Below are positions 1,342 through 41,166 of a stretch of DNA of 41,724 bases, one piece after another; position 1 is the stretch's first letter; every line of letters begins with the position of its first letter. Origin of the DNA: a virus. The notes below the pieces were generated by a model. The model was not told where the DNA came from. It was given only the letters and a program-made list of their open reading frames with translations, and searched no databases. A program made the translations under genes and the position numbers. Location: IMG/VR virus record IMGVR_UViG_3300018063_000025, positions 1-41,724 of that record. One strand, 5' to 3'.

Positions 1342-1644
1342 CTACGCCCAGCGGACCCGCCAGAAACACTCGGCCCCGTGGTCCCACATGCCCGTGGACG
1401 AAATCAGCTCGCCCAGGAGCGCCTGGCCCACGAACGGGTCCGCGCCGCCCGCACCGCCCGCACCGCCCGGGTCACCCACGGGCAGGCCCGAGAGATCGCG
1501 CGCCTCGTCGACGGCACGCTTGAGCACGTAAGTCCCGTAAACGGTACGCCTAGGCGCGTGGACCCCGCGAACGCGTTCCCAACGCTTTCGCCCGACCGAT
1601 CGCTCGACTACCCACTCGCCTCGCACTTGCGCTTTCTTGCCCAT
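1342..1644 (-). CDS. Hypothetical early protein, 100 aa, first gene of the leftward arm
   Basis: I chose the ATG at 1644 because it follows GAGGAG with good spacing; a longer frame reaching 1731 runs through the promoter and has no ribosome site. The protein starts MGKKAQVRGEWVVERSVGRK, is strongly basic and Trp/Arg-rich in its first half, has a GGAGGAGGAD run near residue 67, and ends MWDHGAECFWRVRWA. No known DNA-binding motif is recognised. As the first gene after the control region it would be made earliest, so a regulatory or host-takeover role is possible but unproven. Confidence 0.55.
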   Translation of the reverse strand: MGKKAQVRGEWVVERSVGRKRWERVRGVHAPRRTVYGTYVLKRAVDEARDLSGLPVGDPGGAGGAGGADPFVGQALLGELISSTGMWDHGAECFWRVRWA

Positions 1645-1702
1645 GTCCGTCTCCTCATGCCCGCAACGGGGGGCTTCCGGGGCCTGGGTTGCCCACAGAC
1701 CA

Positions 1703-1731
1703 AGTAAACCACAGGCGGCGACGCCGCACAA
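1703..1731 (-). promoter_or_regulatory. Candidate early leftward promoter
   Basis: On the minus strand TTGTGC (1731-1726) is followed after 17 bases by TTTACT (1708-1703). It matches the sigma70 consensus moderately (3/6 and 4/6). It lies 60 bases upstream of the first leftward gene, and a palindrome (1736-1747) ends 4 bases before its -35 hexamer, mirroring the layout at the rightward promoter 2878-2906. Confidence 0.4.
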
Positions 1732-1735
1732 GTAG

Positions 1736-1747
1736 GTCAGCGCTCAC
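1736..1747. promoter_or_regulatory. Palindrome copy 1 (operator-like)
   Basis: GTCAGCGCTCAC differs at one base from the consensus GTGAGCGCTCAC. It is embedded in an 18-base element, GGTCAGCGCTCACTGACC (1735-1752), whose outer six bases on each side are complementary. It ends 4 bases upstream of the leftward -35. Confidence 0.55.
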
Positions 1748-2056
1748 TGACCGGGCCGTCACCGACAGAACCCACGCCCCCGGGCGGGCACAAGCAGGGC
1801 CGCGAGCGGCAGCCCCCGCCGGGGGGGCCTCAGCCCGGCCGACCCCCCAGCGCCCAAGCGACGCGGGCCAAGGGGCGCCAGCAGCGGCACGGGAACAAGC
1901 GGACGGACAGGGACAGGAGCAGGCAGGCGAGGCGGAAACGCACGGGGCACCCCCAGCGCCCCCAGCCGGGGGGCAGGCGGGCCGGGCCCAGGGAGGGCGG
2001 GACCGGCACCCGGAGGGTAAGCAGGGGCCGTGCCAGGCCGGGGTCGGCTCCGTCGG

Positions 2057-2068
2057 GTGAGCGCTCAC
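2057..2068. promoter_or_regulatory. Palindrome copy 2 (perfect)
   Basis: GTGAGCGCTCAC, a perfect 12-base palindrome identical to the core of the idealised symmetric lac operator. Confidence 0.6.
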
Positions 2069-2125
2069 TTGCGGGCGGCGCGGGGCTTTGCCCGGCGGGC
2101 GGGGGAAGGCGCACCCGGGTGACGG

Positions 2126-2154
2126 AGCAAGGGGGGCCCGGCACGACCCTTGCT
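2126..2154. repeat. 8-bp inverted repeat
   Basis: AGCAAGGG (2126-2133) and CCCTTGCT (2147-2154) can form a perfect stem around a 13-base loop within the control region. Confidence 0.5.
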
Positions 2155-2159
2155 TGGGG

Positions 2160-2174
2160 TGACGCGGGGCGTCA
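2160..2174. repeat. 15-base palindrome TGACGCGGGGCGTCA
   Basis: Six-base complementary arms TGACGC/GCGTCA surround GGG. A related GACGC-GCGGG-GCGTC hairpin occurs at 28076-28090 where the two arms converge. Confidence 0.5.
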
Positions 2175-2265
2175 TGTTGCGGTGCACCAGTGACGCGGGA
2201 CGGCACCTAAAGCAAAGGCCGTGCCGGGGTCGGGGGTGGCTCACCCCAGGGGCCGGCGGCGGTTA

Positions 2266-2277
2266 GTGAGCGCTCAT
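2266..2277. promoter_or_regulatory. Palindrome copy 3
   Basis: GTGAGCGCTCAT, one base from the perfect palindrome, in the left arm of the 28-bp inverted repeat. Confidence 0.55.
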
Positions 2278-2419
2278 CCTGTCACGCACCGCGAAAGACG
2301 CTCGGAGCCGGTGCAGCCGGTGCGTACGTAGGGCCAGGGGGGGTGCCGGGAAGGGGTCTCGGGGGGCGCAGAAGGACCGGACGCACCGGTCTGGGCCCCG
2401 CGGGACGGTGCATGACAGG

Positions 2420-2431
2420 ATGAGCGCTCAC
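2420..2431. promoter_or_regulatory. Palindrome copy 4
   Basis: ATGAGCGCTCAC, the mirror image of copy 3, in the right arm of the 28-bp inverted repeat. Confidence 0.55.
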
Positions 2432-2825
2432 TACCGCCGAGGAGGGCGACGGGGGCCGAGGGACGCCGGGGAGGGAGACACGCCCCGGGGGGGACAGACC
2501 GGGAGAACCGGCCTCACGCGCGCGTACGCTGGGGTGTGCACGCCTAACGCGAGAAGCGGTGCGTGGCACACTCGGTGATACCCCTGCCGGTGGCTCACGC
2601 CAAGGGGGCCGGGGCCGCGGCTTTCGGCTTCCTGTGCGGCGCGGCGCGGGGTGCCGGGTGCCCGCCGGCAGGGGCTTGCGGCCCACTTGCGGGGTGCGTG
2701 GGGCAAGGACCGTGGGCCCGGGCGCGCGGCAAGGGGCAGGAGGACCCGCGACGGGGGGAAGGGGCAAGCGAAGCGGGGCCCACGGGCAGGGTGCGGGGGG
2801 TCCTCCCCCTGTCTACAGTGTATTA

Positions 2826-2853
2826 TCCCCCTTTCCGTTCTTCTTTTTTCTTC
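2826..2853 (+). other. Pyrimidine tract beside the rightward promoter
   Basis: A 28-base stretch of C and T with a single G lies just upstream of palindrome copy 5, in otherwise very GC-rich DNA. TCTACAG at 2812-2818 and CTGTAGA at 2871-2877 form a 7-bp inverted repeat that brackets the tract and the palindrome. It could be a melting element or act as an upstream promoter element; this is inference. Confidence 0.4.
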
Positions 2854-2858
2854 TGATA

Positions 2859-2870
2859 GTGAGCGCTCAC
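2859..2870. promoter_or_regulatory. Palindrome copy 5 (perfect), upstream of the late promoter
   Basis: GTGAGCGCTCAC ends 7 bases before the -35 hexamer of the rightward promoter at 2878-2906. The position just upstream of -35 fits an activator site or one half of a looping repressor. Confidence 0.6.
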
Positions 2871-2877
2871 CTGTAGA

Positions 2878-2906
2878 TTGACTCCGGCTCACGCCTGTGC
2901 TATGAT
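2878..2906 (+). promoter_or_regulatory. Sigma70-type rightward promoter
   Basis: TTGACT (2878-2883), 17-base spacer, TATGAT (2901-2906). The last 15 spacer bases, the -10 and the next 3 bases are identical to the promoter at 12451-12479 (24 identical bases, 2886-2909 and 12459-12482). It would drive the terminase and virion genes. The expected transcript start is about 2912-2914. Confidence 0.8.
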
Positions 2907-2913
2907 CCGTGCC

Positions 2914-3348
2914 GTGGCCGCCCCACGCACGCGCAAGATTTCCCCGCCCCCGGATAAGACCAATGGCTCTCCGGATAGGCCCTTGCTGCCCGCGCTCCGG
3001 GAAATGCATGCGGTCGGCCGCGACCCGGACGGCAGGACGCTCCCGCACGATTTCGATATCCAGATCGCGGCGGTCGTGGCCCAACTTGCCGCAAACGGGG
3101 CGACCCCCGATGAAATATCCCGCCTTCTGAACCTGCGCCCGGGTACGCTGCGCAAACATTACCGGTACGAGCTTGAGAATGGCTGCCTGCATGCCAACAT
3201 GACCGTGGCCACCAGCCTGTTCGCGGCCGCCCGGGTTCCCGGGAACATACGGGCCGCCGAGATCTGGCTTAAGGCCCGGGCCGGCTGGCGGGAGACCGAT
3301 GATAAGAATGCCAACCAGTCGCCGTTGAACATTCACATCCACGCATGA
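2914..3348 (+). CDS. Probable terminase small subunit (HTH protein)
   Basis: The product carries a helix-turn-helix-like segment (DEISRLLNLRPGTLRKHYRY) about halfway along, followed by a helical C-terminal part with AARVPGNIRAAEIWLKARAGW. With its place two kilobases before the large terminase, this fits a small terminase that recognises the packaging site. The open frame extends to 2878, but that lies in the promoter. GTG at 2914 coincides with the expected transcript start, which would make a leaderless message of 144 codons; ATG 3004 is the alternative. The next gene overlaps by ATGA. Confidence 0.6.
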   Translation: MAAPRTRKISPPPDKTNGSPDRPLLPALREMHAVGRDPDGRTLPHDFDIQIAAVVAQLAANGATPDEISRLLNLRPGTLRKHYRYELENGCLHANMTVATSLFAAARVPGNIRAAEIWLKARAGWRETDDKNANQSPLNIHIHA

Positions 3349-3849: not shown

Positions 3850-4137
3850 GCGACCGGCCGATACGACTGGATGGGGCCCCCCGGGTGTATTCCGTGTCAG
3901 GGAAGCTCGAGCAGGCGATCGGCCTGATCGTGGACGCGGCATTTGGGGAAAAGCCCCATGATTTGGAAGTGGGCCCCGCCGCCGAGGATCGGAGGATCAA
4001 GCGCGCCCAGGCCCGCCCAGGCCCGCACCACGCTCCTGCAACTCGTGATGCGTGCCAAGGCAGAGGGCCGGGCGGAAGCTAAGGCCGAGTACTTGGTGCT
4101 GAGTCAAATATATCCATATGCTCGTGCCGGGCACTAA
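3846..4137 (+). pseudogene. Hypothetical gene broken by a 10-bp duplication
   Basis: A GTG at 3846 (GTGA overlap with the membrane gene) opens MSDRPIRLDGAPRVYSVSGK and continues to IKRAQAR near 4010. The frame then becomes Pro/His-rich, while a second frame takes over with RTTLLQLVMRAKAEGRAEAK and ends ARAGH at the TAA 4135-4137. A perfect 10-bp tandem repeat at 4004-4023 lies exactly at the switch. Removing one copy gives one continuous 93-residue protein. The end overlaps the large terminase by 20 bases. Function unknown. Either a real frameshift or an assembly artefact. Confidence 0.6.
4004..4023. repeat. Perfect 10-bp tandem duplication
   Basis: CGCCCAGGCC at 4004-4013 and 4014-4023; CGC continues the pattern. 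It shifts the frame of the gene at 3846-4137. Confidence 0.9.
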
Positions 4138-5659
4138 AGGTCAAAAGATCGAGGGCGGGCCGGTCCGGTCCGACGGGGTGCATTACACCCCGGACGGGGG
4201 GATTTTGAAAGCTTTCCTGAATGACGACAGCTTCATATCGGGGGTGCGCGGGCCGTTCGGATCGGGCAAGTCGACCGCGGCCATAATGAAGTTGATCAAG
4301 AACGCTCAGGAGCAGGCGATCGGCCCGGACGGCTGGAGAAGGCGCAGGACCGCGATCATCAGGAATACCTATCCGGAACTTCGCACCACTACCATGAAGT
4401 CATGGCACATGTGGCTCCCGCAGCATCTGGGGAAATGGCGCGAGGCGGGCCCCCCCATGCATTACTTCAAGGATGACGCCAAGAAGTTTGAATGGGAGAT
4501 CCTGTTCCTGGCGCTGGACCGCCCGGACGATGCATCGAAAATCTTGTCGATGGACCTCTCTGACTGCTGGGTGAACGAGGCGCGGGAAGTTCCAAAGGGT
4601 ATCATAGATGCGCTTACCGGGCGGGTGGGCAGATACCCGCCGGTCTGGCAGGGCGAGGTCACGAAGGCCCAGATCCTGTTGGACACCAACCCCCCGGACA
4701 CTACCTCGTGGTGGTATGTGCTGGCCGAGCACGATATGACGAATGAACGCAACCGGCAATTGGTGGCGTCCATGCTGGAGGCCGAGGGCGTGCTTCGTAC
4801 CAAGGGAATCCTCCGCCCCAACCAGCCGATCATGAGCTTTTTCACACAGCCCTCGGGCAGGGGCCCCAATGCCGAGAACCTGAAGTTCCTGCGCCCGGGC
4901 TATTATGACTTGTTGATGGCCGGGAAATCCGAGGACTACATCAAAGTCTACGTGGACGGGGAATATGGGTTCATCATGGAGGGGCTCCCGATGTTCCCGG
5001 AGTACCGGGACACGACGCATGGGAGCCGCGAATTCCCGATCATCAGGACCCTCGGATTCCGCATCGGGTTGGATTTCGGGTTCACCCCGGCCGCGACCAT
5101 CAGTCAACGCCTGCCGTCTGGAAGATGGTTGGTGCAGGATGAACTGGTGTCGGAGAAGCTTGGCATCGACACCTTTGCAAAGGAACTTAAGAGAAGGCTG
5201 GCGGACAGATACTCCGGGATCAGGGTCATATCGGTACGGGGCGATCCGTCGGGAGACGTTTCCGCGCCGGGCGAGAGCTCGCCGTTCGCGATCATGCGGG
5301 CGAATGGATTTGACGCATGGCCCGCGACCACGCAAGATCCAATACGAAGGCGCGAGGGCGTGGCGTACCTGCTCAAGAATCTGGTGGACGGGGAGCCCGC
5401 CATCCAGATCCATCCGCGCTGCTCATGGTTGAGGAAGGGCATGGCGGGGGGCTATCACCGCCGCCGGCTGTTGGTGGCCGGGGAGATTAAGTACCGGCAC
5501 GTCCCGGAGAAGAACGAATACTCGCACATATGCGAGGCCCTCGAGTACGATTGCGTGTCGGCCGGTGAAGACCGTCACGTCACCATGAAGCCGGAATACC
5601 TCGACAATCCGAGGCAGCAGTACGCAGAGAGCGACGACTATCGTATTTTAGGAGGCTGA
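4118..5659 (+). CDS. Terminase large subunit
   Basis: 513 residues, the usual length. The ATPase half shows a Walker A motif, GPFGSGKST (residues 45-53), and a Walker-B-like DCWVNEARE (149-157), with acidic residues after the hydrophobic strand. The nuclease half has RIGLDFGFTPAA (Asp319), the acidic GDPSGD (376-380) and a late EALEYD, consistent with the RNase-H-like metal site. It packages DNA into the prohead through the portal. The ATG at 4118 has no clear ribosome site and overlaps the broken upstream gene, so translation may depend on it. Confidence 0.93.
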   Translation: MLVPGTKGQKIEGGPVRSDGVHYTPDGGILKAFLNDDSFISGVRGPFGSGKSTAAIMKLIKNAQEQAIGPDGWRRRRTAIIRNTYPELRTTTMKSWHMWLPQHLGKWREAGPPMHYFKDDAKKFEWEILFLALDRPDDASKILSMDLSDCWVNEAREVPKGIIDALTGRVGRYPPVWQGEVTKAQILLDTNPPDTTSWWYVLAEHDMTNERNRQLVASMLEAEGVLRTKGILRPNQPIMSFFTQPSGRGPNAENLKFLRPGYYDLLMAGKSEDYIKVYVDGEYGFIMEGLPMFPEYRDTTHGSREFPIIRTLGFRIGLDFGFTPAATISQRLPSGRWLVQDELVSEKLGIDTFAKELKRRLADRYSGIRVISVRGDPSGDVSAPGESSPFAIMRANGFDAWPATTQDPIRRREGVAYLLKNLVDGEPAIQIHPRCSWLRKGMAGGYHRRRLLVAGEIKYRHVPEKNEYSHICEALEYDCVSAGEDRHVTMKPEYLDNPRQQYAESDDYRILGG

Positions 5660-28706: not shown

Positions 28707-28798
28707 CGGTATTTGCTCCATAGTTCAGCTATCTTCCATGCCATGGCGACGATCACGGCGATTATCACCATCCATGGCCCCGGTCGGTTGATTCTCAT
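28703..28798 (-). CDS. Tiny membrane protein, 31 aa, coupled to datZ
   Basis: Too short for routine gene finding. ATG at 28798 overlaps the datZ stop by ATGA, and its own stop overlaps the nuclease ATG by ATGA. Sequence starts MRINRPGPWMVIIAVIV and ends AELWSKYR: one transmembrane helix with a basic C-terminus. The double overlap is strong support; function unknown. Confidence 0.65.
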   Translation of the reverse strand: MRINRPGPWMVIIAVIVAMAWKIAELWSKYR

Positions 28799-29301
28799 TC
28801 CTGTACTTCCATGGCCCGTAGCACTTCGGCCACCGGCTCGGCCCACTCTTCCCCATACTCCGCCAGCATGGCCATGACCTCATCGGCATAGAGTTGGCGC
28901 ACCTTGGCAGAGTGCACCCCAACCCAGCGGTGATGAATCCAGCCAAGGGCCTCTAGCTTATCGGCCATTTTAACGAACCGGGCCAATTCGATCGACGGCT
29001 CCACGAAGAAGGCATGGTGAAACGGCATCACGGAGGGTCTGGGGAGCATGTTGGCCTTGGCCGGTGAGGGTATATCCCCGGTCCTAAACTCATCGGCATC
29101 ATGGAACATGCAGTATACCAGAAGCTGAAGCGCCCCTTCCCGGTTTCCCGGAGTGCCGGCAAGACCGATAATTCGATCGTACAGCATCAGCGCAATGAGC
29201 ATTACCCCATACTGGTGGTCCGCAAGGGTTTGCTCGCCGACGACTTGGATCGTGTGCCATCTGCGGACATGGCGTGATAGAAAGATCTCTTTCCAGTTCA
29301 T
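28795..29301 (-). CDS. datZ: HD-domain dATP phosphohydrolase, DatZ-like
   Basis: 168 residues from ATG 29301, which follows GGAGGAACG; the open frame to 29697 is upstream shadow. The HD site is visible: RRWHT (His16), ADHQ (His29), FHDADEF (His67-Asp68), GDIPSPAK (75-82) and ADKLEA (Asp114), the YfbR-type layout. In Z-phages this enzyme (DatZ) hydrolyses dATP so that adenine is depleted and only Z enters DNA. Its place beside purZ in an ATGA-linked operon supports that over a general 5'-nucleotidase. Confidence 0.8.
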   Translation of the reverse strand: MNWKEIFLSRHVRRWHTIQVVGEQTLADHQYGVMLIALMLYDRIIGLAGTPGNREGALQLLVYCMFHDADEFRTGDIPSPAKANMLPRPSVMPFHHAFFVEPSIELARFVKMADKLEALGWIHHRWVGVHSAKVRQLYADEVMAMLAEYGEEWAEPVAEVLRAMEVQE

Positions 29302-29552
29302 CGTTCCTCCAGCGGTGTTTGATAGTCCAGGCCATACTGCTCCAGGCACGCGACGCCTAAGGCAATTACCTGCACGATCTCGTTTAACGGGTGGCTGCGA
29401 TTCACGCTCCCGTAACGGATGCCATCTTCGGCCTCGACCATTTCGCGCCGCATGATTCTCAGCCATTCCTTGGCCGTATGCATTTGTACATACATGCCTT
29501 GGTGCGCGCGCTCGCGCACGATCTCGTTGAAAATCTCTTCTCTCGTAACCAT
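29298..29552 (-). CDS. Short MazG-like protein, candidate MazZ, 84 aa
   Basis: ATG 29552 follows GAGGAG. The chain has MazG-like helices with acidic motifs REMVEAED (36-43) and NEIVQVIALGVACLE (57-71), resembling the metal-binding EExxE and ExxD motifs of all-alpha NTP pyrophosphatases. It is shorter than usual MazG proteins and far shorter than full MazZ. In Z-phages MazZ converts dGTP to dGMP, the substrate of PurZ. Position between datZ and purZ is the main support; activity is not certain. Confidence 0.5.
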   Translation of the reverse strand: MVTREEIFNEIVRERAHQGMYVQMHTAKEWLRIMRREMVEAEDGIRYGSVNRSHPLNEIVQVIALGVACLEQYGLDYQTPLEER

Positions 29553-29554
29553 GG

Positions 29555-30574
29555 CTAAATCTCCTCAATATGATCTTCCCTCGGTCCCCAGCCCGTTCGG
29601 CCCACATGCGCGTATTTATTAATAATGGCGCACAGGCGCAAGGTTTCATTCCTGGGCACATAATTACAGAAGTTAAGGAAAACTTGATCCACCCCATTCA
29701 TTCGGATCGCCTGCCTGATCTGCTCCTCAGAAAACGAGAACAGCCGCCGGGGTAGCTTGGACACGGTTGTCAGCTCCGGCTCGACGCCGATGGATGACCA
29801 TTCGATCTCTTCTTGATCCCAATACCCTGGCCCGGACCAGCCTACCTGTTTGCCGTCTTTAAAGCGATTGGCCACCCGGATCGGAAGCGTGCGGGCAACG
29901 CCATAGACCATAAAATCAAAGTTGATTGGGATTGCGCAATCGCTCAGGATCTGATGCACCGAGCAGTCGCGCCATGTGCAATAAGGATAGATACCATTGT
30001 TGATGCCCAGCCCGAATCCCTGTGCGGCTTCGACCTGGATGAAATTGGCCCTATCTATCAGGTCATTGTACTCCTCGACCGATACCACCGATCCTTCTAG
30101 CAGGGTCCGCTGCAACCGGAGCCGGGCTATGTTACCAAGATCCCCGGTTGCCCGGCGCATCTTCTCCATCAATGCCTCCCCGCCCCCTTTCATCACGCCC
30201 CCGACCCGGTAAGCGTATTGGGAAACCAGATGCCGATGCTCGTCGTCCACGATCGCCGCATGCTCATGAATATAGAGTTCCACCCCGCCGTCGCTCAATC
30301 GGTCCAGCGCTCCCATTTCGGAGAGTAATAGATCCGGGTCAATGCATGATCCCGGCCCGAGCAGCACCCGCTTTACCGAATCGGACACGAGGCCCGACGG
30401 CAGGGCAATACTGACATATTTGTTGCCGAGGGCATCCACGAATGTGTGCCCGGCATTCGGGGCCCAGGCGGTCACGATGGTATCGGGCTTGAATTTCTTG
30501 GCCAGATACCCGGCCAGTAGCCCCTTGCCCTCTGACCCGAATTGCAGTCCCATTATTACGCATCCAGCTTTCAT
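29555..30574 (-). CDS. purZ: PurZ, succinyl-amino-deoxyadenylate synthetase
   Basis: 339 residues, clearly homologous to adenylosuccinate synthetase (PurA) but about 90 shorter. The P-loop reads MGLQFGSEGKG where PurA has GxQWGDEGKG: the catalytic Asp is replaced by Ser14, the reported mark of PurZ, which uses dGMP instead of IMP. NAGHT with the conserved His follows. Start at 30574 forms ATGA with the polymerase stop; the longer frame is rejected. The product gives dZMP after adenylosuccinate lyase and kinases of the host. Confidence 0.93.
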   Translation of the reverse strand: MKAGCVIMGLQFGSEGKGLLAGYLAKKFKPDTIVTAWAPNAGHTFVDALGNKYVSIALPSGLVSDSVKRVLLGPGSCIDPDLLLSEMGALDRLSDGGVELYIHEHAAIVDDEHRHLVSQYAYRVGGVMKGGGEALMEKMRRATGDLGNIARLRLQRTLLEGSVVSVEEYNDLIDRANFIQVEAAQGFGLGINNGIYPYCTWRDCSVHQILSDCAIPINFDFMVYGVARTLPIRVANRFKDGKQVGWSGPGYWDQEEIEWSSIGVEPELTTVSKLPRRLFSFSEEQIRQAIRMNGVDQVFLNFCNYVPRNETLRLCAIINKYAHVGRTGWGPREDHIEEI

Positions 30575-32430
30575 GATAGACTCGCTCCAGCCCAATGATC
30601 AGCGATCCTGACGTCACTTAAGATGGGCACCCGGCACGAGATCGCGGCGTGGGGGCCAAAGTCCTCGAGAATATACTTAATTGCACGCGGCACATGCTTC
30701 TTACCGCGCGGCACCGAGAAATCTATCTCGTCGTGCACCGACAACAGCATGCGAAATCCTTGTTTCTTGTGGGTGGCATGAAGTTCAATCATCTTCTGCT
30801 TCATGCAATCGGCGCTGGTGCCCTGGAATACTAGGCCCCCCGCCTTATATGCATGCGCGGGGCTGGGAAATCTGATCCGACGCCCAAGCATAGTTTTAAC
30901 GTATCCCCGACCCCGCGCAATGGACGCTGCTTGGTCCAAAAGCTGCCTGATACCAGGAATCGCGGAGTGATATTGTTCAAATTTAGCCTTGGCCTCAGGC
31001 CCCGCCACGAGCCATTCCCGTCCGGATCGGTCATGCCTGATGCTGAATTCAAGATCCATTTCCTCTGCCAGTTTGCCTTCGCCCATACCGAATACCAGGC
31101 CCAAATTAATTTGCTTCGCGTTGGCAGTGTTGCCAGCATATTTGGCGTCACGAGGAAGACCGGTGATGGCCGCAACCATCGCATGGAAATCGGTGGCCGG
31201 ATCGTCACGATACTTGGCGATGAGCGCCGGGTCATTAACATAATGGGCGAACCAACGGAATTCAAATTGTTCCCAATCTGCACAACACCAGTCTTGCCCC
31301 TCGTCCGGTACGAAACACGCACGCGTAATGAGCGCGATTTCCTTATCACGCTTCGGGATCTGTTGCAACGCCGGATCGTTGACTGAAAATCGCCCCGTAC
31401 CGGTCCCCAATTCGTTATCTCCGCGTGTTTGATTGTAATTCGGATGAACGTAGCCATTTACCTCGTGTCCCAGAATGTGATCCTTGAGGAAACTGCTCGC
31501 CTTCACCAAGGTCCGCACGTCGATCACGGCCTGGGCGCGCTTATCCCCCCGGTCCGCCATCAGCTTGAGTTTGATCTTGCTGAACGACCCCTCGCCCCCC
31601 GGCGTATCGTCCAGCAGCACCCCGTTATCCGCCCACCACCTGTCATCCTCGCCCTTCTTGACGTTGAACAATTTCCGCATCTGCGGCGGGGAGTTGGCGT
31701 TAAACTCCTGCCCCACCATCGCGTTCAGCGCGCTCTGTGCTCGCTGTATTCTGTCCTTGGTCAGGGCCAGTTCACGATGGGTGCGATCCAGGTCCACCCG
31801 GACCCCGCCCCATTCAAGGTCAACCAAGACCGGAGTGAGCGCTCGCTCCACCGCCCACACCCTTTCAAGCTCCTGTTCCGCAATTTGCTTCTCCTGCCAC
31901 AACCACAATTTGATAGCCAGTTGCGGGTCTTCGATTGCGTACTTACGAGCCAGCCGCTCGGGCGCGCGGTGAAGGTTCCCCATCTGGGCCTTGCGGGTCG
32001 GCTCGCCCCCGAACAGCTTGGCCAGATCACCGTATATGTCTACTTTGCCCTGGCCCACATACTTGCGGGCAAGCGCATCGAGTGAGAACGATGGCTCATG
32101 CTCATTAATCAATGCCGCCCGCACCATCGTGCATTCCATCCTATCGGCGGGGAACTCGATTCCTTTGCAACGGGCAAATAGGGCATCGAACTTGAGGTTG
32201 TGTCCCATGACCCGCCGGCATTGAGGCAGTAGCTTAATGAGCCACGGCACGATGTTGGAATTGGTGCGGACGTCCCAGTACCCGCTCGCCCATTCCTTTG
32301 TATCTGGGTCGTGCGCAGCAACTGCAACCCCGAACAGTCTGTCCTTTTTCCAGGATAGGCCCGTGGTTTCCACGTCCACCGACACTAGAGGATAGTCGGG
32401 CAGACGGGATAGATTGAGTTCCTTAATCAT
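30571..32430 (-). CDS. dpoZ: PolA-family DNA polymerase, DpoZ-like
   Basis: 619 residues, with 3'-5' exonuclease then polymerase. Exonuclease: VDVETTG (18-24), GHNLKFDALF (76-85), IEDPQLA (166-172). Polymerase: motif A CCADWEQFEFR (382-392, usual DYSQIELR), O-helix segment AKQINLGLVFGMG (438-450) and motif C VHDE (565-568). The coupling to purZ by ATGA, and to the helicase above by ATGA, is consistent with the dZTP-preferring DpoZ of Z-phages. Assignment as DpoZ relies on context; from motifs alone it is a family A polymerase. Confidence 0.88.
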   Translation of the reverse strand: MIKELNLSRLPDYPLVSVDVETTGLSWKKDRLFGVAVAAHDPDTKEWASGYWDVRTNSNIVPWLIKLLPQCRRVMGHNLKFDALFARCKGIEFPADRMECTMVRAALINEHEPSFSLDALARKYVGQGKVDIYGDLAKLFGGEPTRKAQMGNLHRAPERLARKYAIEDPQLAIKLWLWQEKQIAEQELERVWAVERALTPVLVDLEWGGVRVDLDRTHRELALTKDRIQRAQSALNAMVGQEFNANSPPQMRKLFNVKKGEDDRWWADNGVLLDDTPGGEGSFSKIKLKLMADRGDKRAQAVIDVRTLVKASSFLKDHILGHEVNGYVHPNYNQTRGDNELGTGTGRFSVNDPALQQIPKRDKEIALITRACFVPDEGQDWCCADWEQFEFRWFAHYVNDPALIAKYRDDPATDFHAMVAAITGLPRDAKYAGNTANAKQINLGLVFGMGEGKLAEEMDLEFSIRHDRSGREWLVAGPEAKAKFEQYHSAIPGIRQLLDQAASIARGRGYVKTMLGRRIRFPSPAHAYKAGGLVFQGTSADCMKQKMIELHATHKKQGFRMLLSVHDEIDFSVPRGKKHVPRAIKYILEDFGPHAAISCRVPILSDVRIADHWAGASLS

Positions 32431-39848: not shown

Positions 39849-40115
39849 TCAGAAACTCGGCTCGTTACCCTCACTACGTACATGTCGGCGCATGACCTCT
39901 TTCAACAGATCCACGCTAAATCTTACCCCATGCACTGGCCGGGGTAGGTTATCGTGCATTTCTCTATATACAGACAACTCACCACATGGGCATTCATATA
40001 CCCAATTAAACATGAGCCGGAACCTATGGGCGGGGCTGACACCCACTTCTACTGTGGATCCAGGCACTTCAGCCATGATACAGGCCGCCACTCGCTGCAA
40101 ATGGTTCATTTTCAT
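39849..40115 (-). CDS. Hypothetical protein, 88 aa
   Basis: ATG 40115 overlaps the preceding stop by ATGA. Chain MKMNHLQRVAACIMAEVPGS, a central YECPCGELSVYREM, and a helical basic end FSVDLLKEVMRRHVRSE. Cys pair (CPC) may bind metal. Not recognised. Confidence 0.6.
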   Translation of the reverse strand: MKMNHLQRVAACIMAEVPGSTVEVGVSPAHRFRLMFNWVYECPCGELSVYREMHDNLPRPVHGVRFSVDLLKEVMRRHVRSEGNEPSF

Positions 40116-40921
40116 TTCTTGAGTGCCCTCAAGCGGTTGCCAATAGTCATGCGCTTACGCCCCGTGTCCAGGTGCGCGTATTTCGCATCCAGTTCCGCAG
40201 CGGTGGCCTTGAGCAAGGGCGCCGCGTATTCGTACACTTGCTCGATGGTCTTGCCGCGCAGTGCCTCGGCCACTTCATCGCCGACGTCATGCCGGCCCGC
40301 CCTGGTGCGCTCGGCCCGCTCGACGTCGGCCTCGGACTTTATCTTATGGTAGCGGGTCTTGCCCAATCGCTCTTCGGGCAGCTTGGTCGCGGCCGCGACA
40401 GGCACGCTCTGGATCACGGCCTTGGGCACATGAGCATTGGTCTCATCCGGGCGGCGAGGCCTATCGCGCAGTCGCACAAAGTTGTTGCCCATGAACCCAT
40501 CGACGTACCAGATCTCGCCCCGGTACGTAACGACGTCTCCGTCCGTGAAGCCGGGATAGGTCGGGCTGATGGGTAGGGTTAGTGTGACCGCCGCCCGCAC
40601 CTCTGCGATCGGGATTAGTCGATCGCCTTTAACGGTAGGGTTAGCTGGACGTTCGGGCTGGTGTCGCCCGGGCCGACCGGGCCCGGCGAGTTCAAGTGCC
40701 CTTCGGGGAACGGATTGGGGATCGGGATCAGGGGCCCGAACTTTGGGTTCGGCTTGCGCAGGTCCGCAGCCTGCGGCGGGCACCGGGGCCCGGCCACTAT
40801 CAACAGGTCCCCGAACACGAACATCGTCCCCATTTCCAGGCCCGGGGGCAGGCTGATCACGAACTTTGGTTCCTTCAGGCTTTGCATCTGTCGCCCCCCA
40901 TTCATCTAAAAAGTCTCTCAT
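40112..40921 (-). CDS. Conserved phage protein, paralogue of 813-1253, 269 aa
   Basis: I chose ATG 40921, preceded by GGAGGA and forming ATGA with the stop of the upstream gene; a start at 40960 would overlap it. Layout: short head MRDFLDEWGATD, a Pro/Gly/Arg/Ala linker of about 70 residues, GDRLIP, a beta segment with SPTYPGFTDGDVVTYRGEIW, and the C-terminal domain GDEVAEALRGKTIEQVY, KYAHLDTGRKRMTIGNRLRA shared with 813-1253. The linker overlaps another candidate gene in a different frame. Function unknown. Confidence 0.7.
   Translation of the reverse strand: MRDFLDEWGATDAKPEGTKVRDQPAPGPGNGDDVRVRGPVDSGRAPVPAAGCGPAQAEPKVRAPDPDPQSVPRRALELAGPGRPGRHQPERPANPTVKGDRLIPIAEVRAAVTLTLPISPTYPGFTDGDVVTYRGEIWYVDGFMGNNFVRLRDRPRRPDETNAHVPKAVIQSVPVAAATKLPEERLGKTRYHKIKSEADVERAERTRAGRHDVGDEVAEALRGKTIEQVYEYAAPLLKATAAELDAKYAHLDTGRKRMTIGNRLRALKK
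40615..40887 (-). CDS. Possible overprinted gene inside the linker of 40112-40921, 90 aa
   Basis: In another minus-strand frame, ATG 40887 follows GGGGGGCGACAG and opens MQSLKEPKFVISLPPGLEMG, then MFVFGDLLIVAGPRCPPQAA and a natural-looking end NVQLTLPLKAID. The host frame here is only a low-complexity linker, as expected where a second gene constrains it. Evidence is the quality of the frame and the ribosome-like G run; it could also be chance. Confidence 0.42.
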   Translation of the reverse strand: MQSLKEPKFVISLPPGLEMGTMFVFGDLLIVAGPRCPPQAADLRKPNPKFGPLIPIPNPFPEGHLNSPGPVGPGDTSPNVQLTLPLKAID

Positions 40922-41166
40922 GATTGTATCCTCCGTGCGATGGCGTTTACGCGCCGGCACCAGCGTTTACCCGTCTGTGTCAACCGTCCATCCTTGCCCA
41001 CGAGCTTGGGCATATTGGGCAACACGAACGGGTCCGCCAGACTTCCATCCTTCACTTTCGCTCGTGCCTTTTTGCGCGGGGTCGTGCCGTCGATGACATT
41101 ATCCCGCATGGGCCGTGCGCCGAAGGACGCGCCGGCCCACTCTTCCAACAGTGACTTTTCGCCCAT
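40918..41166 (-). CDS. Hypothetical protein, 82 aa, first gene of an attenuated transcript
   Basis: ATG 41166 has GAGGAG 8 bases upstream; a GTG 15 bases earlier is rejected because the ribosome site overlaps it. Sequence MGEKSLLEEWAGASFGARPM ... DGSLADPFVLPNMPKLVGKD ... GKRWCRRVNAIARRIQS, basic. The leader contains a hairpin-plus-T attenuator. Not recognised. Confidence 0.6.
   Translation of the reverse strand: MGEKSLLEEWAGASFGARPMRDNVIDGTTPRKKARAKVKDGSLADPFVLPNMPKLVGKDGRLTQTGKRWCRRVNAIARRIQS

Follow-up and report, generated by a model that had tools for sequence, protein, structure and literature searches.

Between the divergent gene arms of this phage genome lies a non-coding gap with five palindromes; judged from their sequence, SlmA-binding sites (SBS) explain them better than lac operators do. 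SlmA is a TetR-family nucleoid-occlusion protein of Gammaproteobacteria. We consider it somewhat more probable than the opposite that the array is an SlmA-binding cluster, which would let amplified phage DNA capture and activate SlmA and so halt the division of the host. The window, i.e. the whole stretch of DNA that was analysed, comprises the 41,724 bases of a virus record, with the following features around the array.

1342 to 1731, minus strand: first leftward ORF, early arm (ORF map).
1732 to 2913: non-coding hub that separates the divergent arms (ORF map and family matches).
1736 to 1747: predicted SlmA-binding site 1, GTCAGCGCTCAC; 20-mer GTAGGTCAGCGCTCACTGAC; matrix score 15.6.
2057 to 2068: predicted SlmA-binding site 2, perfect GTGAGCGCTCAC; matrix score 6.2.
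2137 to 2228: inverted element bounded by sigma-54-like -24/-12 sequences, alignable to the relative L051.
2266 to 2277: predicted SlmA-binding site 3, TAGTGAGCGCTCAT (last base T), inside an inverted repeat; matrix score 4.9.
2420 to 2431: predicted SlmA-binding site 4, ATGAGCGCTCACTA (first base A), in the other arm of the inverted repeat; matrix score 1.6.
2739 to 2810, plus strand: conserved G-rich block, consensus about GGGGGTGGGGGCCAAAGCGNGCGGGTCC in relatives, upstream of terS; possibly cos/pac.
2859 to 2870: predicted SlmA-binding site 5, TAGTGAGCGCTCAC, perfect, 7 bp 5' of the rightward -35 element; matrix score 12.0.
2878 to 2906, plus strand: sigma-70-type promoter TTGACT-N17-TATGAT into the terminase arm, 7 bp from site 5.
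2914 to 3348, plus strand: terminase small subunit gene (phrog_309, E=3e-8; GTG start uncertain).
4118 to 5659, plus strand: terminase large subunit gene (phrog_2, E=2e-24), used as bait for relatives (64-79% identical).

The array occupies the gap between the two arms, and the G+C skew flips sign near 2 kb. The left arm, on the minus strand, is the early/replication arm; it encodes a primase, a SNF2 helicase, a PolA-type polymerase, a PurZ-type synthetase and a dATP triphosphohydrolase, and extends past both ends of the record. The right arm, on the plus strand, carries terS, terL, a T7-like head-tail adaptor (portal), the major head protein and tail proteins. Divergent promoters had been placed beside the outermost sites by the first-pass annotation. 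The right one is a good sigma-70 match, while the left candidate (TTGTGC-N17-TTTACT, minus strand), 4 bp from the site at 1736, falls under the scanner threshold.

A scan of the window for GTGAGCGCTCAC with at most one mismatch located the five palindromes at 1736, 2057, 2266, 2420 and 2859. Sites 2 and 5 contain GTGAGCGCTCAC itself and the other three differ by one change each, as the first-pass annotation had described for this non-coding DNA; its array start, 1735, is off by one, the first site being present but beginning at 1736. In dinucleotide shuffles of the 1182-bp hub (n=3000) the mean was 0.004 sites and the maximum 1, so that the five observed stand far above the chance expectation and the array is not refuted on this ground. 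Across the whole window no other near-palindromic 12-mer had three copies inside 1.2 kb, and the further one-mismatch sites, at 31835 and 41366, are both isolated and within coding DNA. The sites at 2266 and 2420 form the ends of a 28-bp inverted repeat (2264-2291 / 2406-2433, 96% complementary). Two of the five sites have weak flanks, namely sites 4 and 3 (matrix scores 1.6 and 4.9), a point against the SlmA reading.

The same motif was found in the same gap in the TerL relatives (64-79% identity) and in L051, which came from the motif scan, so that conservation at the same place is also borne out. L004 contains six sites, L009 five, and L003, L005 and L051 two each. When the hubs of the relatives are aligned, only the sites, the G-rich block, the sigma-54-like element and a few short patches can be matched; the hub sequence thus turns over while the sites persist, the pattern expected from selection on the sites. 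The G-rich block was defined by hub-to-hub blastn (window, L003, L004, L005, L009 and L051) together with reading of L007 and L010. Two further members of the TerL clade of the window, L006 and L007, have no SBS in their short upstream stretch. Each carries in its hub one parS-like palindrome, TGTTTCACGTGGAACG with 2 mismatches (L006 274-289, L007 138-153), perhaps another chromosome-organising signal suited to a different host. Positions 1-110 of L006 are a contig-end tandem repeat of GGGGGGTCCGATAGTCGGAGACTATGGACTATGGACAGC.

The consensus of the phage family pointed to SlmA, and this identity was then borne out by published sequences. SlmA binding has been published for SBScons (AAGTAAGTGAGCGCTCACTTACGT), SBS17 (TCAACGTTAGTGACCATTTACTTACTTTTG) and SBS12 (CGCGAAGTGAACGCTAACTCACTG) (PMC4423959), and the window motif AGTGAGCGCTCACT is contained in SBScons, right flanks included. 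The E. coli ChIP consensus GTGAGTACTCAC, drawn from about 50 sites, none of them in Ter (PMC3116907), is a palindrome of the same form, and TA-centred variants are plentiful in the phages. A symmetric matrix of 102 distinct phage 20-mers scored SBScons at 30.7, SBS17 at 14.0, SBS12 at 11.4, the ideal lac operator at 1.9 and lacO1 at -21.1, absolute values that should not be over-read because the sites were picked with a fixed core.

The first-pass annotation had called the palindromes lac-operator-like and proposed a host LacI/GalR-type repressor as their binder. The ideal lac operator does share its 12-bp core with the SlmA site, and the centre is always a pyrimidine-purine step, both of which speak for such a repressor. 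However, the phage family has A (0.81) outside GTGAG where lac has T, its ends are GTTA/TAAC, and its permitted centres are CG, TA and CA/TG, the last two being common, so that neither the T flank nor the fixed central CG of a LacI-family operator was found. The ideal lac operator also scores far below SBScons, the core tracks slmA in bacterial genomes as set out below, and no LacI-type match was found among the phage proteins scanned. Flanks, centres and the slmA association point to SlmA, and we regard a LacI/GalR-type repressor as very improbable.

The association with slmA was examined, independently of the matrix, in a sample of 120 Pseudomonadota genomes. The core GTNAGYRCTNAC occurs on average 14.1 times per genome with a strong SlmA match (n=14), compared with 2.6 times in those without (n=94) and 1.4 times in those with a weak SlmA-like match (n=12). 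Twenty or more copies were present in 6/14 strong-SlmA genomes and in 0/106 others (p=8e-7), and the reversed control of GTNAGYRCTNAC showed no difference between the groups (p=0.33). Since the species may share more than slmA, this tie is an association. Chromosomal SBS characteristically avoid the terminus of the chromosome; the largest gaps, taken as a measure of such avoidance in two genomes, gave p=0.06 (G047) and p=0.23 (G082).

A scan for GTCAGTGAGCGCTSAC revealed more arrays in other phages. The extended 20-mer GTTAGTNAGYRCTNACTAAC occurs in at least 120 viral contigs and its reversed, equally palindromic control in 0, and it is found in 0/398 Pseudomonadota genomes, which argues that the phage sites are nearer the optimum than the chromosomal ones. 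A native bacterial operator was rejected as the identity of the array, the 18-mer having only 2 matches in all genome contigs, one of them within argS. Two to six cores per locus were present in 60 of the 80 loci fetched, and 2-11 sites per phage overall. The smallest distance between exact cores is 22 bp, so adjacent 20-bp sites do not overlap. In the 13 large contigs examined, nearly all sites of a contig fall into a single cluster. No array was found among the isolate phages fetched via TerL relatives, nor among those reached by blastn of the concatenated sites, a search of low sensitivity for 20-mers. As a clue to the host, prophage-like TerL proteins in Gammaproteobacteria were uninformative (best 44% identity).

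In the mapped loci, the arrays adjoin terS/terL or sit between terS/terL and early genes, and they accompany the terminase genes of seven or more TerL lineages; the seven TerL representatives compared are mutually barely or not similar. Packaging sites (pac/cosB) for the terminase small subunit would fit this position directly 5' of terS/terL in most lineages. However, the TerS beside the arrays are of differing kinds (Sf6-type, Terminase_2, phrog_309-type or no family), and TerS that are unrelated would not all recognise a single 20-bp site; in the clade of the window, the G-rich block before terS is a better cos/pac candidate. The same site beside different TerS families and seven TerL lineages makes a packaging function very improbable. 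Conversely, the phage DSL-LC05 has a TerL 71% identical to that of the commonest lineage yet lacks the array. The array therefore does not track the phage backbone, which argues for a host protein as binder.

Alternatively, the sites could be origin iterons or operators bound by a protein of unknown fold that the phage itself encodes for DNA binding or replication, their match to SBS being a convergence. A divergent two-arm hub is a usual place of an origin, DnaA-box-like and other sites are enriched near the arrays, and the inverted element at 2137-2228 is conserved. Against this, the SNF2 helicase is the only convincing protein family common to the lineages, a TetR domain above cut-off was found in 0/27 array-bearing records, DSL-LC05 is without an array, and the match to SBS extends to flanks and centres with a core that tracks slmA in genomes. 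We therefore consider a phage-encoded binder improbable. With no convincing TetR-type gene in the 27 records, the binder should be host SlmA, and the first-pass picture of a symmetric array in a divergent hub, with a host protein as its probable binder and no gene for that binder in the phage, is upheld.

One protein domain of the window was considered as binder and rejected. The genes at 813-1253 and 40112-40960, both on the minus strand, have a common C-terminal domain, phrog_8941 (KYGHLNxGMQRMNLGNKIRG), which is present in two copies in the relatives too. A 62-bp stretch of the DNA for this domain shares about 85% identity with distant Z-phages, and the domain occurs in Z-phages without arrays. 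In the window, the dATPase-like and PurZ reading frames overlap within 28795-30595 (minus strand), and the presence of the PurZ-type synthetase and the dATP triphosphohydrolase suggests a Z genome, with 2-aminoadenine for A. By its early-arm gene set, PurZ included, the phage resembles the 2-aminoadenine phages Vibrio phage CJY and Alteromonas phage ZP6, from both of which the palindromes are absent. PurZ used as bait for further relatives gave no match. That the window phage probably has 2-aminoadenine in place of A is counted against the SlmA reading.

Other signals occur near the arrays. Sites of the sigma-54-like form TGGCACG-N4-TTGCW (at least 11/12) are about ten times denser near arrays, although most arrays are without any; in the window, -24/-12 sequences of this kind lie at 2139-2154 (plus), 2211-2226 (minus) and 2020-2035 (minus), in the hub only. 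Dense clusters were seen in the array phages L017, L005, L059, L060 and L050, and two of the sequences in L059 stand immediately before genes. As most arrays have no such sites, and as the records searched yielded no bEBP AAA+ or HTH_8 domain, a host bEBP/sigma-54 enhancer was rejected as the identity of the array, and the sigma-54-like sites are treated as a separate, second element. A PspF site was likewise rejected: the E. coli pspA UAS GTTAGTGTAATTCGCTAAC has the same half-site with a spacing of 5, not 6, and no N5-spaced (PspF-type) forms were present near arrays.

Additionally, the NtrC-type GCACCAN3TGGTGC was counted 44 times near arrays versus 4 times in the rest of the same contigs, mostly in one lineage, and Fur-type sites, DnaA boxes, IHF-type and sigma-54-type sites are also enriched there; these sites were searched for after the fact, in loci that are related within lineages. 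In TerL lineage c2, the arrays are interleaved with NtrC-type sites GCACC-N5-GGTGC and with Fur-box-like ones, both 40- to 150-fold enriched relative to the remainder of the contigs (L057 2507-2560; L104, L105, L113, L118, L138 and others). With several regulator-like site types near the arrays, the hub appears to combine signals read by several host proteins, and in some of the phages it may serve as an origin.

SlmA-binding sites could also act mainly in gene control, with SlmA repressing or activating the divergent early and late promoters and the phage programme thereby responding to the host's division state. SlmA is a direct activator of Pchb in Vibrio cholerae (PMC5519180) and represses a promoter carrying an SBS between -10 and -35 (PMC3573117). 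The arrays lie between divergent arms in several lineages; two window sites adjoin -35 elements, site 5 at 7 bp, and in L005 a minus-strand TTGACA is found about 3 bp away from one site. Such abutting promoters are however not a general trait, since sigma-70 promoters 0-9 bp from an SBS numbered 4 versus 5.8 expected (494 site-sides), and an operator would not need as many as 11 variably spaced sites per phage. Gene control as the main function thus seems unlikely to us, though it is the rival that we take most seriously.

We return to the capture and activation of SlmA by phage DNA. When two SlmA dimers are bound to an SBS, they disassemble polymers of FtsZ (PMC4423959). Multicopy plasmids with two or tandem SBS delocalise SlmA and, in its presence, thereby block division with lethal outcome (PMC3573117, PMC4117426). 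In E. coli, a few hundred molecules of SlmA face 24-52 SBS (PMC4423959, PMC3573117). By sequence identity, each site of about 20 bp in the phage would be taken by two SlmA dimers. Several sites per genome, combined with genome amplification, would move SlmA from the chromosome to the phage DNA; five sites in some hundred genome copies make several hundred sites, above the number on the chromosome, and could capture most of the SlmA. The phage sites would at the same time switch SlmA on, so that FtsZ would be disassembled wherever phage DNA is. Host division would thus be halted and the cell kept as one large factory, with no need for a phage inhibitor protein. The position of the array at the divergent early/late hub is not required by a pure sponge and counts against a sponge reading.

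The broader proposition, that unrelated phages have repeatedly acquired near-optimal SBS clusters and that the viral genome itself acts as a DNA-encoded division inhibitor through delocalised SlmA, without an inhibitory phage protein, is one to which we give slightly less than an even chance. Its elements can be compared with known systems. Chromosomal SBS of Escherichia coli and Vibrio cholerae have the same palindrome and the same predicted binder, but they stand singly and scattered, most of them are degenerate, and E. coli has none in Ter, whereas the phages have 2-11 near-consensus sites clustered in one intergenic hub. The multicopy plasmids pUC-2xSBS and p2SBSK likewise place extra SBS on replicating DNA and, with SlmA, block Z-ring assembly; they are laboratory constructs, while the arrays of the phages occur widely in nature, with a predicted effect. 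Lambda Kil, a phage protein inhibitor of FtsZ (PMC3961180), has the same presumed goal of stopping division during infection, but it acts as a protein, where the phage array would act as DNA sites activating a host protein. The ideal lac operator, finally, is identical in its 12-bp core and different in flanks and permitted centres. No natural SBS clusters in viruses were found in the open-access literature, the scope of the search; the SBS itself is known, and its clustered natural use by viruses appears to be new.

Work on SlmA sites has so far treated them as marks on the chromosome by which the nucleoid is kept free of the division ring. If the arrays act like the SBS plasmids, they would provide a protein-free viral route to stop host division and, if this is true, viruses would be copying a chromosome-organising signal. 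The motif may also serve as a host-range marker, as array phages should infect bacteria with a gammaproteobacterial SlmA.
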